Shown here: in pieces, positions 4,775 to 20,707 of the stretch
How positions within the stretch are numbered: the stretch's first letter is position 1
Layout of the letters: every line of letters begins with the position of its first letter
DNA from: a virus
Reading direction: 5' to 3' (one strand)
Virus record (IMG/VR): IMGVR_UViG_3300022744_000094
Span: 1 to 24,596 of that record
Length of the DNA stretch: 24,596 nt
The notes under the pieces: model-generated
Database searches by the model: none
Seen by the model: the letters and a program-made list of their open reading frames with translations, nothing else
Told to the model about the DNA's origin: nothing
Position numbers and translations under genes: made by a program

Positions 4775-6195
4775 CAGTGCGCCCCTGTCGATACATCAGC
4801 GTGCGCGGTCAGGAAGACAACATCAACGCTGTCGCTCACGCGAAACTTGATGATGCGCTGCCGGAAACTGCCCATTGCGTGCCACACTGCCCGCCATGTG
4901 TTCTCGCCGATTGGACCCATGCCCGCGTTTCGAGCGTCCGACCATGTCTTGCCGCCGTCATCTGAATGGCTTTCCATGACAATCGGGGCTGTCCCATCCA
5001 CAAGACCGACACCGGATTCAATCTGTAGTTCCAGCCTCGGCATGAACATCCGTCGCCCGCTGTCGTTGATTTGCGGCGTCGTGACCTCTCGAACGATACC
5101 CGTCCCGTTCTCGGTCAGCGTGTCAGCCTGGAGTTCGTACAGATTGCCGTCTGAAGCCCCCACGATCTGCTTGGAGCCGTTCAGCGTGTACGTGTTGGCA
5201 TCCCAGCCCCCGAGAGGCTCGGCACCCATGCTCCACGTCCCTGACTTCCGGTAGGACCAGAGGTTGGTGCTTACGTCCCAAGCCAGTGTCCATTCATTCG
5301 GAGCCGTGAGGATGTAGAAGAGATGTCCCCGTTGCTGGTACGAAAACGCACGCAGCGTAGTCAGGTCTGACACCGTCTCAAGATAGCCGTCAACCTGTGG
5401 CGTGCTGATCTTGCGGGGCGAGTATCCTTCCGCCCGATAGACCGACACGCCTCCCGCCCGACCATCACGCCCGACCCATGTAAGCGCGTTGTCCACGGTA
5501 ACTGCCGAGTCCCGTGAAACGCAGCCAATGGATGCGGAGGCCGTCGCAGTACGTGCGAAGGCATCTGCACCGGCATCCCCAGTCGGCCCCCAAAACTCAG
5601 TCGTTGCCGTGCCTAGCAGGGCTATTTCATTGCCTACCTTTCGCACCGCAACCAGCTTATCGCTTTCCGCTTCAGCCGTGGCAAAGTCCAATGCGCTGTA
5701 GGTGGACGTGTTCGTCAGCTTCCACCGGAACCGGCCTGAGTTGCGAACCGCCACGATGGAGTAAGAGGCAACAGATGCGGTGCTGATGGCCTGCTCGAAA
5801 CTCCCGCCCGTTTCCTCGGACAGAACACCGGAGGGCGTGTCGTAAGAGTAGGTCTTGAGGTCGGCGACGATCTGAATCTGATTACCGTTGTAGGACAGGT
5901 CGCAGGCCAGACCGCCTTCAATCTCACCGATATCGGTTGTTACCCCGCCCGATGTGACGCTGTAGAGCCTCGTCCCTGCCACCACGTAATGCACATCGGA
6001 GGCCGTAATCTGCCCACGAATGGTTGAACCGATGGAGGCGAACAGTGCCTTTCCCGGAGTGCCATAAAGCGCAACGTCCGTGCGCCCCTCCCCAGCGACA
6101 GGCTCCGAGTACATATTGACCATGGAGACCATCCCAGGCGCAGTGCTGCGGCCTCGGCCAAACGACTTGCCAAGTGGGATGTTTATCCGGCCCAT
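4774..6195 (-). CDS. P22 gp10-like packaged DNA stabilization / tail hub protein
   Basis: I choose ATG 6195, which overlaps the previous stop as TAATG and gives 473 residues, essentially the length of P22 gp10 (472). An ATG at 6219 in the same frame would overlap the spike gene by 25 bases. The N-terminal region (GKSFGRGRSTAPGMVSMVNMYSEP...) has the familiar layout of this family, with conserved VNMYSEP and GTPG segments. The rest is a run of short beta strands with repeated aromatic, Gly and Asp turns, consistent with a beta-propeller. In P22 gp10 forms a hexamer below the gp4 connector and holds the DNA in the head. It sits after connector and spike genes and before ejection genes, as expected for a short-tailed phage. 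Confidence 0.82.
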   Translation of the reverse strand: MGRINIPLGKSFGRGRSTAPGMVSMVNMYSEPVAGEGRTDVALYGTPGKALFASIGSTIRGQITASDVHYVVAGTRLYSVTSGGVTTDIGEIEGGLACDLSYNGNQIQIVADLKTYSYDTPSGVLSEETGGSFEQAISTASVASYSIVAVRNSGRFRWKLTNTSTYSALDFATAEAESDKLVAVRKVGNEIALLGTATTEFWGPTGDAGADAFARTATASASIGCVSRDSAVTVDNALTWVGRDGRAGGVSVYRAEGYSPRKISTPQVDGYLETVSDLTTLRAFSYQQRGHLFYILTAPNEWTLAWDVSTNLWSYRKSGTWSMGAEPLGGWDANTYTLNGSKQIVGASDGNLYELQADTLTENGTGIVREVTTPQINDSGRRMFMPRLELQIESGVGLVDGTAPIVMESHSDDGGKTWSDARNAGMGPIGENTWRAVWHAMGSFRQRIIKFRVSDSVDVVFLTAHADVSTGAH

Positions 6196-11463: not shown

Positions 11464-12057
11464 TCACTTCTTGCAGACGAGGTTCGCGATTATATCTTGC
11501 GCGGCCTCTTTGTAGTTCGCCAGTGCGAACTGCTGGTATTCCTGGTTACGTGTCAGGAGCGACTGGTGCAGGCTGTAACCCCACGTACACTCGAAGTCGC
11601 AGGAATAGCCGTCTGGATTCCACTCAACGTCACTGTGCGGGGCCTGCGCCTTGCGCCAGTCCTTCGACAGGTAATAGAAGCCCATTTCGCTGAACGGCTC
11701 GCAATGCGTCGGGTCGCCATAAAAGCGGTTGCTTGCCCAATGCGGGAAAACCAGAGAGGCTTTCGCCCCCGGCATCATCACGCGGTGGAGTTCATTGAAG
11801 AACCGCACCCGCTCCCATTTGCCGTTCAGGTTCGTCAGGTGTTCGAGGAAGTGGCTTGAGTGCGCCTCATCGACTGAGTTGTCTTCGAATGGCCACCGCT
11901 CCCCGCCGATGCGGAAGACGTGGTCAACACCAGGCATTGCATACTGATCAACCCCAACGAAGCCCTGCTTCTTGTTGGTGCCACAGCCGATATCAAGCTT
12001 GATAGGCGTCTTCAAGGCTGGGGCGGATGCTTCTTCGATCTTCTTGGCCTTTGCCAT
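11464..12057 (-). CDS. Class I SAM-dependent methyltransferase
   Basis: A 197-residue protein with the class I methyltransferase motif I, LDIGCGTNKKQGFVGVD (residues 21-37), ending in the acidic residue that binds the ribose of S-adenosylmethionine. PFEDNSVDEAHSSHFLEHL (56-73) follows, corresponding to the motif with SSHFLEHL typical of small-molecule and glycan methyltransferases. ELHRVMMPGAKASLVFP (89-105) is the usual post-III segment. AGGAAC lies seven bases before ATG 12057. The substrate is unknown, but its pairing with a glycosyltransferase two genes upstream suggests a sugar or a glycosylated virion protein. DNA methylation is unlikely: no DPPY/NPPY motif is seen. Confidence 0.85.
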   Translation of the reverse strand: MAKAKKIEEASAPALKTPIKLDIGCGTNKKQGFVGVDQYAMPGVDHVFRIGGERWPFEDNSVDEAHSSHFLEHLTNLNGKWERVRFFNELHRVMMPGAKASLVFPHWASNRFYGDPTHCEPFSEMGFYYLSKDWRKAQAPHSDVEWNPDGYSCDFECTWGYSLHQSLLTRNQEYQQFALANYKEAAQDIIANLVCKK

Positions 12058-15289: not shown

Positions 15290-17479
15290 CTAGTTCATCT
15301 TGCCCATGTCAATTTCGACACGCTTCTCGCCGGTCAATGGGTCTTTAATCAGCTTGCGAGGGGCTGAGAGCGACTTGAGGGCCTCGCCCATCTTGTCCAG
15401 CGCCTTGGCGATCGCCGTCATGTGCGGGGCTTCAGCCGTGGCCTTCTTGACCTCGCCTTCCTGAACCCGCTGCGCGTCCGTTTCCTTCTCACGCTGCTGG
15501 AAGGAGAAGTCCATCTCTTTCTGCTGACCCGCGTGATGCAGGTCCATAGCCTTGCGCTGTGCCTCAACCTCAAGTGCATTGCGCTGCTTGACCGCGTCGG
15601 CCTCTAGCGACTGCTGGAGCTTCACCCCGTCAATCTGGGCCTGCGCCTGGAGGATTTGCATGGAGTTCTCGAACTTCTGTTGCTCGAGAGCCTGTGCACG
15701 CTGTGTCTTCGCCTGATCGGCCTGGTCCTGACGCTGCAATTCCTCTGCGTGAGCCTGTGCATCGATCTGCGTCATGGCCTGCTTCGACTGAAGCTGTACC
15801 TGTGCCTTGGCCTGCTCGGCTGCTGCCGCTGCCTGCTCTGGTCCCGGCTGGCCTTGAACCGCCTTCTTGGCCTCTTCCATCTTGTCGAGGAGAAGGCGCT
15901 TCTTCGGGAGGCTTGAGGCTTCGATGAGGACTTCAGGCGGGATCGGAATGCCACCCTGCACGAGTTCGGCCAACTTCTGGAATTGTTCTTCCTGAATGAC
16001 TGCCGTGTCAGGCGTGGAGTCGATGATGATGTCCACGTCCATTTTAGCCGGCTGGTTACGCGGTGGCTGGCTCGGGTCAATGACCGGCTGACCGTCTGGC
16101 CCAATCATCGGATGGCCCGGGTTGTTGGGGTCCATCATCAGGGCCGGTTCATTCATCATGATGAACTTTGGCGCGTTCTCGTCATCTGTGACGCGGATGT
16201 ACTTCTGGTCGGTCCAGAACTGCTTGACGCCTTCCCAGAGCGCCCGATAGACGCGGAGAACCCAGTCATCAAAGGCAGCGAGGATAGGTGACTGTTCCGT
16301 CATGCCCGCTTGCTGCTCGGCAAGGATGGCCCTGCCCGACTGGCTTGCACCACCACGCCCCACAATCCCCGGCGTGGGAGATTGGCGGCGCATCTCTTCC
16401 TTGGCATCACGCAGCAACTCAAGGTGAGCCTGTGCGAATTGCTTCTCGCCCAACTCCTCGACCTGACCCTCACGAAGCTGGAGGATGCCGTCCGGCTTGG
16501 CCCATTCGCGGCGGATGTCATCGACATCCATCGCTCCAGGATCAACGCGGAGTTTGCCCACGTTCAGGATGTGAACTGCCTTGGAGCGCGCCTTGTTGAT
16601 GGCGTCCTGCGGCCCAATCATGTCGCGAATGACGCCGTAGCGGACGTTATCGCGGGTCACATATGCCGATTGGGCGATGGTGCATTTCTTGGGACGGCCA
16701 TTGCTGTCCAGATACTTGGACGGTCCAGACTCAAGGATAGCATTCGCCACGAACACGCACTTGTGCCAATCCGCGCCCCTGCGGTGGTACATCTCGAAGC
16801 ACATGACACGGCGGGTTTTACGATCAGCCCATGACCAAGCGCGGTTGGGCCGGTCCTTGAACGTCTCGTTGACCATCGGCGTGGTGTCGATGCTCGCCCT
16901 GATTTCCTTCTCCTTGTCGGGATACAGGTCAATCAGGTCGCTCTCGTCCATCCACTTGGCGATGCCGTCATACGACACGTCGCTGAAGTCGGCTTCCCGG
17001 CTGTAGGGGTCGTAGAAGTACTCTTCAGGCTTGACGCGGGTGACTTGCAGTTCGCCCTGCTCGTCCAGTTCGACCACGCAAGCAGCAGTGCCCCAGATGA
17101 GAAGGTCCTTCAGGGCCTCGCGCTTCTTGGACTGAAGTCGTGTGATGTCTGCGCAGTAGCGCATGGAGTCGGTCGCTACTTCCGCCGCATCCTGATCCTT
17201 CGGGGTACGTCCCCAAGCCTTCGGGTCGGTCTTGCCGCGCTCGACTATGCCGATGATAGCGTTGACGGCTGGCTTCACATGGTTGAACACCAATGCGGGC
17301 TGACCACGGGCCTCAAGCGTTCTGCGCTCCTCGTCGGACCAGTGCTTGCCGTCGTAATAGTCTTGAGAGGCTTGGGAAGCGATGCGCGCGTCTTCCAGCA
17401 AGTCCATAGACGCAACGGCTTTTCGGCGCAGGTTATCCAAGTGCTTGTCCTGCTCGGATGGTCCTGTCTGCTTTGCCAT
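15290..17479 (-). CDS. Portal protein, P22-like
   Basis: With ATG 17479 (overlapping the terminase stop as TAATG) the protein has 729 residues, very close to the P22 portal (725). The N-terminal stem and wing region shows the typical sequence QDYYDGKHWSDEERRTLEARGQPALVFNHVKPAVNAIIG (about 39-77), then LLIWGTAACVVELDEQGE. The middle has ITRDN-like and MIGPQDAINKARSKAVHIL segments. The C-terminal ~200 residues (about 530-680) are an extreme Gln/Ala/Glu-rich helix, corresponding to the barrel or internal helical tube of P22-type portals. The dodecameric portal is the DNA channel at one vertex and docks the terminase. It follows the large terminase directly. Confidence 0.9.
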   Translation of the reverse strand: MAKQTGPSEQDKHLDNLRRKAVASMDLLEDARIASQASQDYYDGKHWSDEERRTLEARGQPALVFNHVKPAVNAIIGIVERGKTDPKAWGRTPKDQDAAEVATDSMRYCADITRLQSKKREALKDLLIWGTAACVVELDEQGELQVTRVKPEEYFYDPYSREADFSDVSYDGIAKWMDESDLIDLYPDKEKEIRASIDTTPMVNETFKDRPNRAWSWADRKTRRVMCFEMYHRRGADWHKCVFVANAILESGPSKYLDSNGRPKKCTIAQSAYVTRDNVRYGVIRDMIGPQDAINKARSKAVHILNVGKLRVDPGAMDVDDIRREWAKPDGILQLREGQVEELGEKQFAQAHLELLRDAKEEMRRQSPTPGIVGRGGASQSGRAILAEQQAGMTEQSPILAAFDDWVLRVYRALWEGVKQFWTDQKYIRVTDDENAPKFIMMNEPALMMDPNNPGHPMIGPDGQPVIDPSQPPRNQPAKMDVDIIIDSTPDTAVIQEEQFQKLAELVQGGIPIPPEVLIEASSLPKKRLLLDKMEEAKKAVQGQPGPEQAAAAAEQAKAQVQLQSKQAMTQIDAQAHAEELQRQDQADQAKTQRAQALEQQKFENSMQILQAQAQIDGVKLQQSLEADAVKQRNALEVEAQRKAMDLHHAGQQKEMDFSFQQREKETDAQRVQEGEVKKATAEAPHMTAIAKALDKMGEALKSLSAPRKLIKDPLTGEKRVEIDMGKMN

Positions 17480-18960
17480 TACGCTGTTTTCCAACTTCCT
17501 TGTGTCGATTGCCTACGATGTCGTGTGTAAGCGTCGTTGGGACGCTTGGTCGGGTCACTCTTGGTCATGAGCGCAGGCCATGCCTCGTCAACCGCGCGGC
17601 CAATCAAGCTGCAACAGTCAACCGCATCATCATGTTTGCCTGCGGGGAAGCGGATAAGCTGATCCACCACGTCACCAGCCCAAGGTGTCTTGGGGAATGC
17701 CACCTTGCCATTCGCCGCTAGTGCTTGGAATGCTCGTGCTCTCGTCGCCTTGTCATGGATGCTCGCCACCCACTCAACGGACGTGAACACCTTGCGCTCG
17801 TTCATGCGGCGGGTCAGGAGGCTTTCAATGGCTCTCCGAATGACACCGCCTTCAGCGAATACGGTAAACGGCTTGTGCTTGGCCACGAGGTCAAGCAGTC
17901 GCTCGATCCAGACCGACGCATCAGTCTGGCCTCGCCACCAATCGATTGCATATAGGGTCGAGTCTGAACCAACGCCCCATACTGCAAACTCAGTCCAGTC
18001 ACCGCCCGCATCCGTAACCGCGAAGTCGCATGTGATGAAAAGGTTGACACGTGGCTTGTCGTCATAGGTCTTGAACCATTCCCTGCGGAAGAACGTGCCT
18101 TCATCTGGCTGCGGGTCTTGCTGGAACAGACTGGACCAGAACCGGGGAAGCGAGTTCGCCCGGATGCGCTCTAAAGCCTCTAGTGGGTAAGCATCGGGCC
18201 AGAGCGCCGCCCCGGTATCTGATATCGCGGGAAGGCAAACCACTTCCCATTTGTCGCCACCAGCTTGCTGCTGCTCTAGCAAATAGCCTGATAGGTCATC
18301 TTCGTGCATTCGGTGGTTGATGAGGACAATCGCCCCACCGGGCTGCAATCGGTTATAGACGCTGCCCTGATACCACTCCTTGACGGCCTTGCGCTCTAAC
18401 TCAGATTGAGCGTCGGCCATTGAACCGAATGGGTCATCGATGATGAACTCATCCGCACCACGGCCCAAAATCGACGACCCGACGCCAACTGAGTAGAAGA
18501 TGCCACCGTGTTTAGTGTGCCATCTGCCAGCGGCCTGACTATCCTCGGCAAGTGTGACCGCAGGGAAAATACGGCTGTACTCTTCTGACCGGATGATGTT
18601 TCGCACTTCACGGCCAACGTCATTAGCAAACGACTCCGAAGCAGAAGCCGCGATGATCTGCCGGTGCGGATTTCGACCAAGGCACCAGGCAGGATAACGC
18701 CGACTGGCCAACTCCGTTTTGCCGTGTCTGGGCGGTAGGAGAAGCATGAGACGGTCGATTTCACGACGCTCAATCCTCTCCAGCTGCTCGGCTATGATGC
18801 GGTGATGTTGTGCAGTGCGGTAGCGTTCGTAGGTGTATTCGGTAAACTCAGTGAGGCTTGCCCTTGCCTGCCTTCGCTTCAACAGTTCCTTCGCTGCCTC
18901 CACGACCTGCGATGATGGCTGCAAGGTCTGCGTCGGTGAGTTCTGAGATGCTGAGTTCAC
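17479..18960 (-). CDS. terL: Terminase large subunit
   Basis: A 493-residue packaging motor with both domains visible. ATPase: LPPRHGKTE (Walker A, K81), EFIIDDP (Walker B, 171-177) and INHRMHEDD (coupling motif, 214-222). Nuclease, RNase H-like: CDFAVTDAGG with D312, VFAEGG with E370, and HDDAVD with D444/D445 as third acidic pair. It cuts concatemers and pumps DNA through the portal. The start is not certain. The longest frame begins at GTG 18960, giving a 113-base overlap with the small-subunit gene and no good ribosome site; a GTG at 18903 is an alternative. The family often begins with the AAKELLKRR helix, which both starts retain. The next gene is the portal, coupled as TAATG. Confidence 0.93.
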   Translation of the reverse strand: MNSASQNSPTQTLQPSSQVVEAAKELLKRRQARASLTEFTEYTYERYRTAQHHRIIAEQLERIERREIDRLMLLLPPRHGKTELASRRYPAWCLGRNPHRQIIAASASESFANDVGREVRNIIRSEEYSRIFPAVTLAEDSQAAGRWHTKHGGIFYSVGVGSSILGRGADEFIIDDPFGSMADAQSELERKAVKEWYQGSVYNRLQPGGAIVLINHRMHEDDLSGYLLEQQQAGGDKWEVVCLPAISDTGAALWPDAYPLEALERIRANSLPRFWSSLFQQDPQPDEGTFFRREWFKTYDDKPRVNLFITCDFAVTDAGGDWTEFAVWGVGSDSTLYAIDWWRGQTDASVWIERLLDLVAKHKPFTVFAEGGVIRRAIESLLTRRMNERKVFTSVEWVASIHDKATRARAFQALAANGKVAFPKTPWAGDVVDQLIRFPAGKHDDAVDCCSLIGRAVDEAWPALMTKSDPTKRPNDAYTRHRRQSTQGSWKTA

Positions 18961-19189
18961 GGGTGGTTTTCACATCCAGGCTTTGCGGGGCTTTGCCGTC
19001 AATGCGGTCTGCAATCTCCTTGAATGCAGCCAAATCCCCCTCTACTGCTTTCTCAACAACAGCAGCGGCAGCTAATGCCAGTTTCCTGCGGCCTTGCGGG
19101 TCGCCTTCCTGTACTCGGTTCACAGCAACCATGAGCGCATCACGGATTAGCTTGTCTTTGCCCTGACCTGAGTTTGAGTTGCCTGCCAT
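18848..19189 (-). CDS. Putative terminase small subunit
   Basis: A 113-residue helical protein immediately before and overlapping the large subunit gene. The pattern KDKLIRDALMVAVNR, GRRKLALAAAAVVEKAVEGDLAAFKEIADRIDGKAPQ (about 11-70) is seen in short phage proteins that regularly precede the large terminase in proteobacterial phages. Its tail has basic and Gly-rich residues. Small subunits bind the packaging start site and control cutting. A classical HTH is not obvious, so the assignment depends mainly on position and this pattern. Confidence 0.62.
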   Translation of the reverse strand: MAGNSNSGQGKDKLIRDALMVAVNRVQEGDPQGRRKLALAAAAVVEKAVEGDLAAFKEIADRIDGKAPQSLDVKTTRELSISELTDADLAAIIAGRGGSEGTVEAKAGKGKPH

Positions 19190-19212
19190 TATCGGGGTGC
19201 TATCTACTTGAT

Positions 19213-19563
19213 TCAGTTGTAGTTATCCGCAGACCGGCCATTCGCCAATCGCGGGATGATGCAGATGCGCAGGACATCCGTGTCACCACTGGACAAGGTC
19301 GCGGAAATATCCACGTAACCGAAGCCTGAGAGCCGCTGGATGATGCGGGTGGTGGTGTTTGATGTGTTGGTGACTGTGGTGCCAGTCGCGGTGCGCGTAA
19401 CCGATGAGATGGTCGCGCCGTCCAGGTAGGCTGTGTAGTCAAGCGTGTAGGTGAGAGCGTCGTCCTCGTCCTGATAGGCTTGGAACTCTTGAGGCGTGAC
19501 TACACTTAGGCCCCTCGCTGAGTGTCTGCCGTTTTGTGCGAGGACGATTGTGCGGTCAGCCAT
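19213..19563 (-). CDS. Phage fibre-tail adaptor-like structural protein
   Basis: A 116-residue protein. Residues about 37-105 form an Ig-like beta domain with the pattern LDYTAYLDGATISSV, TNTSNTTTRIIQRLSG, GYVDISATLSSGDTDVLRICI. This resembles the small fibre-tail adaptor or head-fibre proteins seen near virion genes in many phages. The start directly follows the stop of the 12-codon reading frame (TAA then ATG) and has no separate ribosome site, so its translation probably depends on the microORF. It is the second gene of the late operon, placed before the terminases, unlike the other tail genes. Confidence 0.65.
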   Translation of the reverse strand: MADRTIVLAQNGRHSARGLSVVTPQEFQAYQDEDDALTYTLDYTAYLDGATISSVTRTATGTTVTNTSNTTTRIIQRLSGFGYVDISATLSSGDTDVLRICIIPRLANGRSADNYN

Positions 19564-19602
19564 TTAGCAGCCGCCCTTGCCCTTCTTTTTGCCTTTAGCC
19601 AT
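19564..19602 (-). CDS. Twelve-residue Lys/Gly microprotein, MAKGKKKGKGGC
   Basis: A 13-codon reading frame (ATG 19602, TAA 19564-19566) coding MAKGKKKGKGGC. It has a good ribosome site, AAGGAAC, five to six bases before the ATG, and lies about 20 bases after an intrinsic terminator. The ATG of the next gene directly follows its stop, and that gene has no ribosome site of its own. It may be a leader peptide that couples translation of the next gene, or a very small basic protein with a C-terminal Cys. It is too short to assign a family. Confidence 0.6.
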   Translation of the reverse strand: MAKGKKKGKGGC

Positions 19603-19619
19603 TGCCTGTTCCTTACATG

Positions 19620-19646
19620 AAAAAAGCCCCACGCTGCCGCAGGGCT
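19620..19646 (-). terminator. Intrinsic terminator just before the late genes
   Basis: On the minus strand AGCCCT pairs with GGGGCT (one T-G pair) around a short loop that can itself pair GC/GC, followed by six T. It ends only 17 bases before the first late start codon, so any promoter for the late genes must lie upstream of it and transcription must pass through it. This is the arrangement of the lambda late terminator tR'. Confidence 0.78.
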
Positions 19647-19669
19647 ACCAAGTTTCGGGAGGAGGAAAA

Positions 19670-19696
19670 AGCGGAACCGAACGCAGTTCGGGCGCT
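19670..19696. terminator. Hairpin in the late leader, possible bidirectional terminator
   Basis: On the plus strand AGCG-GAA-CCGAAC-GCA-GTTCGG-G-CGCT forms a six-pair stem with a three-base loop, extended by a four-pair outer stem. T5 follows on the plus side after AACC, and TTTTT follows on the minus side. It could end transcription in either direction, or act as an RNA pause or antiterminator loading structure in the leader. Confidence 0.5.
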
Positions 19697-19702
19697 AACC
19701 TT

Positions 19703-19732
19703 TTTATAACTTAGAGGTCGGATTCAGCGCAA
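19703..19732 (-). promoter_or_regulatory. Candidate late promoter
   Basis: On the minus strand TTGCGC (19732 to 19727) and TATAAA (19708 to 19703) are separated by 18 bases. They fit a sigma-70 promoter with a good -10 and a weak -35. Predicted start is near 19696, at the edge of the hairpin. An inverted repeat lies just upstream. No experimental support; the -35 is weak enough to need an activator. Confidence 0.4.
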
Positions 19733-19750
19733 GTGATAATTTCATCACTT
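19731..19750. promoter_or_regulatory. Perfect inverted repeat AAGTGAT-N6-ATCACTT
   Basis: Two seven-base half-sites separated by AATTTC, overlapping the stop codon of the HTH gene that ends at 19745 and touching the -35 of the candidate late promoter. It looks like a binding site for a dimeric protein. The adjacent HTH gene product is an obvious candidate. Confidence 0.5.
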
Positions 19751-20002
19751 CGGCCATAACTTGCCGATATGTGGTGTCTTTGATGCGTATCGCCTGTCTC
19801 TTGCCTCAACGATGCGCTCGGCCTTCTGCACCAACTGCTTGACTCGAGTTCCGCTGCTCCCGATTACCCTGCCGATGTGAGCGTAGGAATATCCACATGC
19901 GTGCAGGTAGACCGCAATGAACATATGGCCGTCCCAATATGGACGAAGGTACTCGTGGGACTTTCCCTTCGACCATTCTGGTGGCTTCTTAGGCCAGCTC
20001 AT
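19745..20002 (-). CDS. Small HTH protein at the end of the early operon
   Basis: An 85-residue basic protein. Residues about 37-64, GYSYAHIGRVIGSSGTRVKQLVQKAERI, form a helix-turn-helix that resembles sigma factor region 4.2 in its GY-x-x-x-x-IG-x-x-[IL]-G-x-S-x-x-[RT]-V-[KR]-Q pattern. The remainder is basic and aromatic, with WSKG, YLRPYW and a Lys-Pro rich end. It overlaps the upstream gene as ATGA and stops inside the inverted repeat before the candidate late promoter. From place and fold I infer a regulator of late transcription, by binding DNA or acting on RNA polymerase. No match to a known Q protein is claimed. Confidence 0.72.
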   Translation of the reverse strand: MSWPKKPPEWSKGKSHEYLRPYWDGHMFIAVYLHACGYSYAHIGRVIGSSGTRVKQLVQKAERIVEARDRRYASKTPHIGKLWPK

Positions 20003-20499
20003 TTCGCTAACCCGTAATGCCTAGCCAATCCATTCCCTAGCTTGCACAGCACATCAATCGCTTCTGATGGGTTGCCTCCGATATGCTCCATCCACCACCG
20101 ACCAGCAGCCTTACCGTCGAGGATGACAGCGTCAAGGAACAGGGCGGCGTCTGTACGCAGTTTGGTGACGAACTTTATGGCGTTCGCCCTCCTGGCTTGG
20201 GCTGCAAGCCTTATGTCGCTCAACTCTGACATCCCGCCACGGACTGACTGCTGATAACCCCCAATGCAGGCCGGGAGCAGACCGGAGTTGTACCCATCGC
20301 TGCCCCAAATGCCGAAGGCGTCAGCGTGGACTTGCAGGATATGGCCTCGGCGCAGCAGCCAATCAGGTTGACTCTGCTCTACCCTGATCCTCTTGGTTGA
20401 GCGGTCCTCTGGGTTGGGCTGCTCTACGACCCAGAAAGCCTGCCTGCGGGCTTCTGGGGTGCCGTAGTCGCCGCCTTCTGACTCAATGCGCTTCGGCAT
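19999..20499 (-). CDS. Unknown early protein next to the late switch
   Basis: I choose ATG 20499 (166 residues, MPKRIESEGGDYG), because GGTGA lies about six bases before it. The longer frame from 20520 overlaps the previous gene more. The protein is mixed alpha/beta with many Trp and Tyr residues. Residues about 45-60 (DWLLRRGHILQVHADA) and a helical C-terminal half (ANAIKFVTKLRTDAALFLDAVILDGKAAGRWWMEHIGG, then SEAIDVLCKLGNGLARHYGLAK) are visible. Family not recognised. It is the second-last gene before the late control region, the usual place of Q-type antiterminators, so an antitermination role is worth testing but unproved. Confidence 0.6.
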   Translation of the reverse strand: MPKRIESEGGDYGTPEARRQAFWVVEQPNPEDRSTKRIRVEQSQPDWLLRRGHILQVHADAFGIWGSDGYNSGLLPACIGGYQQSVRGGMSELSDIRLAAQARRANAIKFVTKLRTDAALFLDAVILDGKAAGRWWMEHIGGNPSEAIDVLCKLGNGLARHYGLAK

Positions 20500-20707
20500 G
20501 GTCTTCACCGTTTGGCACAATCACCGTAGCCGACACGCTGGAAAGTTTGGGGGCCTTCATCTCCCGCTTCTTGCGCTCCTTGACGGGTCCGATCTTGAGG
20601 GCAGACGGGGCTGTGGCCTTGGAAATCAGGGCGTGAATGTCTGCTGCTAGCTGGTAGCGGGTCTTGGTGGTGTCGTTGAGCAAGTTGAGAATATCTTCGA
20701 ATGTCAT
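20483..20707 (-). CDS. Small unknown early protein
   Basis: A 74-residue protein with the strong ribosome site GAGGAGCTAGAAC just before ATG 20707. The N-terminal part is helical (FEDILNLLNDTTKTRYQLAADIHALISKA), followed by a very basic stretch, PVKERKKREMKAPK, and an acidic end. It could be a small nucleic-acid binding protein. No family assigned. Confidence 0.62.
   Translation of the reverse strand: MTFEDILNLLNDTTKTRYQLAADIHALISKATAPSALKIGPVKERKKREMKAPKLSSVSATVIVPNGEDHAEAH

Follow-up and report, generated by a model that had tools for sequence, protein, structure and literature searches.

A conserved late-control module of lambda-like layout beside a putative DUF6456/GafZ relative in a virus record

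Comparison with related viral contigs points to a real, conserved late-control module at the early/late gene junction of a 24.6-kb virus record, lambda-like in its layout and not in its protein family. The whole stretch analysed (the window, 24,596 nucleotides) carries replication genes followed by late genes on the minus strand, and all features of the switch lie on that strand in the order 166-residue gene, 85-residue gene, inverted repeat, −35, −10, hairpin, CU-rich stretch, terminator, 12-codon open reading frame (ORF) and terminase genes (Table 1). We consider it probable that this arrangement constitutes a Q-like module for late anti-termination built with a different protein family, in which the 166-residue protein would take the part of Q.

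Table 1. Features of the predicted late switch and its neighbours, in window coordinates.
Feature	Position	Strand	Remarks
166-aa DUF6456/GafZ-like protein, candidate late anti-terminator	19999..20499	-	Conserved beside the element in L002/L003/L004/L005
85-aa protein, sigma-region-4-like helix-turn-helix (HTH)	19745..20002	-	Accessory; inserted after the 166-aa gene, ahead of the element
Inverted repeat AAGTGAT-N6-ATCACTT, candidate activator or loading site	19731..19750	-	7+7 arms; overlaps the −35
−35-like hexamer TTGCGC (weak)	19727..19732	-	TTGCGC in window/L004/L005, TTGACC in L002
−10-like hexamer TATAAA	19703..19708	-	TATAAA/TAGAAA/CATAAA/GATAAA in the four phages
Predicted 77-nt leader RNA (pR'-tR' transcript)	19620..19696	-	+1 predicted at 19696 from −10 spacing; kept in four phages
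5'-terminal hairpin	19670..19696	-	Covarying lower stem, invariant upper stem and loop
CU-rich stretch CCUCCUCCCGAAACU, anti-Shine-Dalgarno-like	19651..19665	-	Contains CUCCUCCC
Intrinsic terminator (tR'-like)	19620..19646	-	Stem 19646-19625, T run to 19620
First late ORF, 12 codons, MAKGKKKGKGGC	19567..19605	-	Lys/Gly-rich; read from sequence
First long late genes: gp77-like, small-terminase-like, TerL	17479..19563	-	

An initial annotation of the window had described promoter, leader hairpin and terminator in the manner of pR' and tR', and conservation, covariation and modular exchange support this layout. The terminator sits exactly where it had been drawn. Since the first late ORF begins 14 nt past the T run, no promoter fits between terminator and late genes, as had been argued; short basic ORFs resembling that of the window also stand directly past the terminator in two related contigs (L002 and L004). 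A loose pattern count finds terminators in the window no more often than chance (2 found, 2.6 expected); by energy, this one (−13.3 kcal/mol) is one of only two strong ones on the late strand. On the coding strand of two relatives, L060 (18.8 kb) and L061 (first 20 kb), no strong terminator other than this one occurs, and among the relatives the stems stay at −12 to −15 kcal/mol despite base changes. The other strong terminator-like hairpin of the window (8538-8515, minus strand, −19.9 kcal/mol) is inside the late operon, between a 145-aa virion gene and the next gene, and was not found in L060. Also amid the virion genes is a methyltransferase-like gene (phrog_6636; 11464-12057, minus strand).

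The promoter-like pair is present at the place first proposed for it and proved weaker than described: it matches 8 of 12 consensus positions, and a strict promoter scan passes no site. Its spacer measures 18 nt (17 in L002). The −10 ends exactly 6 nt ahead of the first base of the hairpin in all four phages, so that the predicted transcript begins with the hairpin. Two features had escaped the initial annotation, the inverted repeat and the CU-rich stretch. The arms of the repeat are perfect (7+7) in the window, L002 and L005 and degenerate in L004, and the repeat is a possible activator or loading site. We rejected a role as repressor operator: GTGATN6ATCAC has one exact copy in the window, the dyad at the −35, and no second, the divergent repressor region included.

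The hairpin is real and lies as originally placed. Its upper stem and loop, CGAAC-TGC-GTTCG, are invariant in all four sequences, and its lower stem covaries (AGCG/CGCT, AGTG/CACT, GCG/CGC), with 15 of 16 pairs possible, a degree of pairing matched by 1 of 200,000 shuffles. We discarded the idea that this hairpin is a second terminator, as a T run follows it in the window only and not in the relatives. Within the CU-rich stretch, UCCUCC and CGAAAC are invariant in the four phages.

Relatives of the 166-residue protein (63-69% identity) were found in four viral contigs only, of which L002 and L003 have the same sequence, so that the element is sampled by four distinct sequences (window, L002, L004 and L005). 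Each relative carries the same noncoding element downstream of the gene, comprising dyad, weak −35, −10, 5'-terminal hairpin, CU-rich stretch and terminator. Over aligned columns, the element is 72-85% identical between phages as against 66-83% for the gene, which is about equal or higher. In L005, similarity extends from the gene end as far as the terminator and no further; in both L002 and L005 the genes beyond the terminator are unrelated to those of the window. L004 shares the late genes of the window, but another gene stands upstream of the 166-residue gene there. From these differing flanks we conclude that the gene and the element travel as one module amid exchangeable neighbours. In the window, the position upstream of the 166-residue gene is held by a 74-aa gene (20483-20707, minus strand) that is conserved in L002 (PSALK..P.KERKKR) and replaced in L004. 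Neither the element nor the 166-residue protein turned up in DNA and protein searches of phage records, and the bacterial genomes searched contained no relative; seven pattern matches in bacterial genomes were set aside as chance sequences, the rest of the element being absent.

The late regulator had been sought in one of the two genes just upstream. The 166-residue gene is the conserved partner of the element, and the 85-residue HTH gene is missing at all four related loci, with an unrelated small ORF in its slot in L004. Given this absence from every relative, we dropped the HTH protein as the regulator and take the 166-residue protein as the candidate. The HTH protein has weak matches to phrog_79 (E 0.01) and Sigma70_r4 (E 0.035), and sigma region 4 structures align with its model (pLDDT 63) at Z up to 7.7.

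The initial annotation had further held that the 166-residue protein is of unknown kind and outside the recognised Q families. The second part stands, as no Pfam or PHROG model hits the family at E<=10 and no protein of a recognised Q family lies beside the element; the first gives way to a likeness to DUF6456. A C-terminal LARHYGL in the family, suggestive of DUF6456, supplied the lead. No protein of the window or its relatives matches Pfam PF20057 (DUF6456) above the curated cut-off; a match is present in the Caulobacter control genome. We collected DUF6456 domains from alphaproteobacterial genomes and compared profiles with hhalign, which aligned the 166-residue family to DUF6456 with Prob 96 (E 4e-9, 137 columns), rising to 97 with a merged profile (137-147 aligned columns across comparisons). 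Controls were negative: the best of 60 column shuffles scored 20.7 vs 56, and the reversed family 13.7. With a plain HMM of the DUF6456 domains, three relatives score 36 bits and the window protein, the weakest, 12; in the reverse direction, the 166-residue profile hits a single place in 385 alphaproteobacterial genomes, itself a DUF6456 protein. Compared with the phage DUF6456 subgroup on its own, the family gives a weak link (Prob 20), and the AlphaFold model of the protein is poor (pLDDT 60), with no fold match in Foldseek. Together, the profile comparisons place the 166-residue family as a distant relative of DUF6456. Since gafA is annotated as DUF6456 (PMC9765227; PMC9638019) and GafZ is homologous to the C-terminus of GafA (PMC9632790), the protein would be related to GafZ as well. 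GafZ of the Caulobacter gene transfer agent (GTA) is an experimentally supported anti-terminator that passes a terminator, associates with RNA polymerase and NusA/G/E, and has its element located between −35 and −10 (PMC11150451).

DUF6456-like genes occupy comparable positions in other phages, where the family's genes carry the label 'unknown function' (phrog_31762 and phrog_21451). In a Bradyrhizobium phage, such a gene (a hypothetical protein) follows a DUF1376 replication gene, precedes the late genes and has a terminator-like hairpin at its stop. Its relatives occur in nineteen viral contigs, and in 14 of the 19 a TerL gene lies downstream on the same strand, 0.7-2.8 kb away, these TerLs belonging to several lineages. 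With the queries used, the remaining five gave no TerL hit; a strong terminator directly behind the gene is missing from most of them. A strong terminator within 450 nt after the DUF6456-like gene was found in 6/20 cases vs 24/328 background windows (p 0.002), and downstream of several other such genes are hairpins whose T runs are shorter. A covariance model of the leader matches leaders directly after DUF6456-like genes in L066 (E 0.034), L063 (0.53) and L076 (0.77), matches that are suggestive only, as the terminators add to the scores. Eight contigs (L058, L063, L065, L068, L070, L071, L072 and L075) share sequence around GCAAATCAC directly after the DUF6456-like stop, preceded in several of them by a dyad, TTGCTGGTCCAGCAA; the two may form a late operator/promoter element of that phage group. 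In L072 the DUF6456-like gene and TerL are separated by a tRNA gene (6069-6142). One bacterial genome (L048) has a DUF6456-like gene with a strong terminator immediately ahead of what look like clustered portal, protease and capsid genes, names that come from reading the translations only.

For the window we propose that RNA polymerase would start at about 19696 and by default stop at about 19620, yielding the short leader RNA. The 166-residue protein, made from the early operon, would accumulate late in the early phase and load on polymerase at the promoter via the dyad or promoter DNA, possibly aided by the nascent hairpin. Polymerase so loaded would pass the terminator and enter the late operon, an effect like that of GafZ at the Caulobacter GTA promoter. 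With less confidence, we suggest that the terminated leader could persist as a small RNA of the anti-Shine-Dalgarno type.

The main rival, which we judge unlikely, is activation without anti-termination: the 166-residue protein would only bind the dyad at about −44 and recruit RNA polymerase to a weak promoter, and a leaky terminator would tune late output. A weak −35 bordered directly by an inverted repeat, perfect in three of the four phages, fits this scheme, as does the GafA/GafY side of the GTA system, which activates at promoters with a degenerate −35 (PMC11150451). However, a mere activator would hardly explain why a strong terminator separates the late genes from the only conserved promoter and persists despite exchange of the genes downstream; the degenerate dyad of L004 also speaks against this scheme.

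Less probable still is that the element serves chiefly to encode a small RNA of anti-Shine-Dalgarno, mmgR-like type from a promoter and terminator of its own, with the late genes expressed by low-level read-through or from elsewhere. Its 5' hairpin, CU-rich CCUCCUCCC stretch and terminator reproduce the layout of alphaproteobacterial trans-acting small RNAs, and Stx phages make the small RNA StxS from pR'-tR' (PMC7873438). Matches to the Rfam family mmgR/suhB (RF00519) reach 19.6 bits in the window (E 0.027) and 35.9 bits in the L063 leader at the same position (E 8e-4 in 50 kb), but every Rfam score is below the gathering score (41 for this family), and the leaders of L002, L004 and L005 give chance-level Rfam matches only. 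Among the phage start regions, none pairs with the CU-rich stretch better than with shuffled seeds, and this reading accounts neither for the linked DUF6456-like gene nor for a location at the late-gene junction that many phages share. Sub-threshold matches to 6C RNA and to CcsR1, a CCUCCUCCC-motif RNA, also occur at 441-513 of L063, ~4.5 kb upstream of its DUF6456-like gene.

Least probable of all, to the point of being improbable, is RNA-based anti-termination, in which a leader hairpin that is HK022 put-like or boxB-like and bound by protein, and not promoter DNA, would commit the polymerase: a transcript that opens with an invariant upper stem and loop over a covarying lower stem would suit it, but put RNAs are ~70 nt with two stem-loops (PMC9378689), whereas here one conserved hairpin precedes the terminator with no Rfam match above the gathering score, and a put-type element would presumably also act on early-operon transcripts, which would make the terminator purposeless.

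The anti-termination reading that we prefer also bears comparison with known systems. Caulobacter GafZ and the C-terminal domain of Rhodobacter GafA (DUF6456), by profile comparison a homologous family, regulate phage-type late genes, and GafZ lets polymerase pass a terminator downstream of the promoter, a property of GafZ that we would extend to the protein described here. Unlike the 166-residue protein, which comes from a phage where we saw no GafY homologue, GafZ works with GafY and IHF at the GTA promoter. It uses a palindrome between −35 and −10, whereas we saw none by eye in the 17-18-nt spacers; the dyad here overlaps the −35 instead, and the terminator precedes the first late gene. With lambda Q/pR'/tR' (also Q21 and 82Q), the module shares a regulator gene ending the early operon, followed by a promoter (here by consensus position only), a short leader, an intrinsic terminator directly before the late genes, and independent movement relative to the terminase genes. 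It differs in having no sequence similarity to recognised Q families and in a leader with a conserved 5'-terminal hairpin and CU-rich stretch. Pseudomonas AlpA, compared by its literature description, is likewise a promoter-loaded anti-terminator that bypasses a downstream intrinsic terminator, but it is of another protein family and function (a cell-death pathway).

The leader may act as a small RNA in addition to its part in the proposed switch. StxS offers a parallel for a terminated late leader as a possible regulatory RNA, with no sequence relation claimed. The leader resembles mmgR/suhB and AbcR1/2 in its 5' hairpin, UUUCCUCCC-type unpaired stretch and terminator, and CUCCUCCC is the aSD1 motif of AbcR1/2 (PMC8844928); it departs from mmgR/suhB in the scores of the window and L063, which fall under the gathering score.

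Our results suggest that phages use a poorly known GafA/GafZ-related family to switch on late genes, as lambda uses Q. A wider and more tentative proposal, which we regard as possible and on balance doubtful, is that DUF6456-like proteins are widespread, unrecognised late anti-terminators of alphaproteobacterial phages, that GTA regulators like GafZ were domesticated from them, and that the leader doubles as an mmgR-type anti-Shine-Dalgarno small RNA. If DUF6456-like proteins do act as late anti-terminators, many phages would have a late switch that can be read, and the origin of GTA control by GafA/GafZ would be accounted for by domestication of a phage late switch. The conserved leader, for its part, offers a direct test of whether a by-product of a late promoter works as a small RNA outside the enteric phages.
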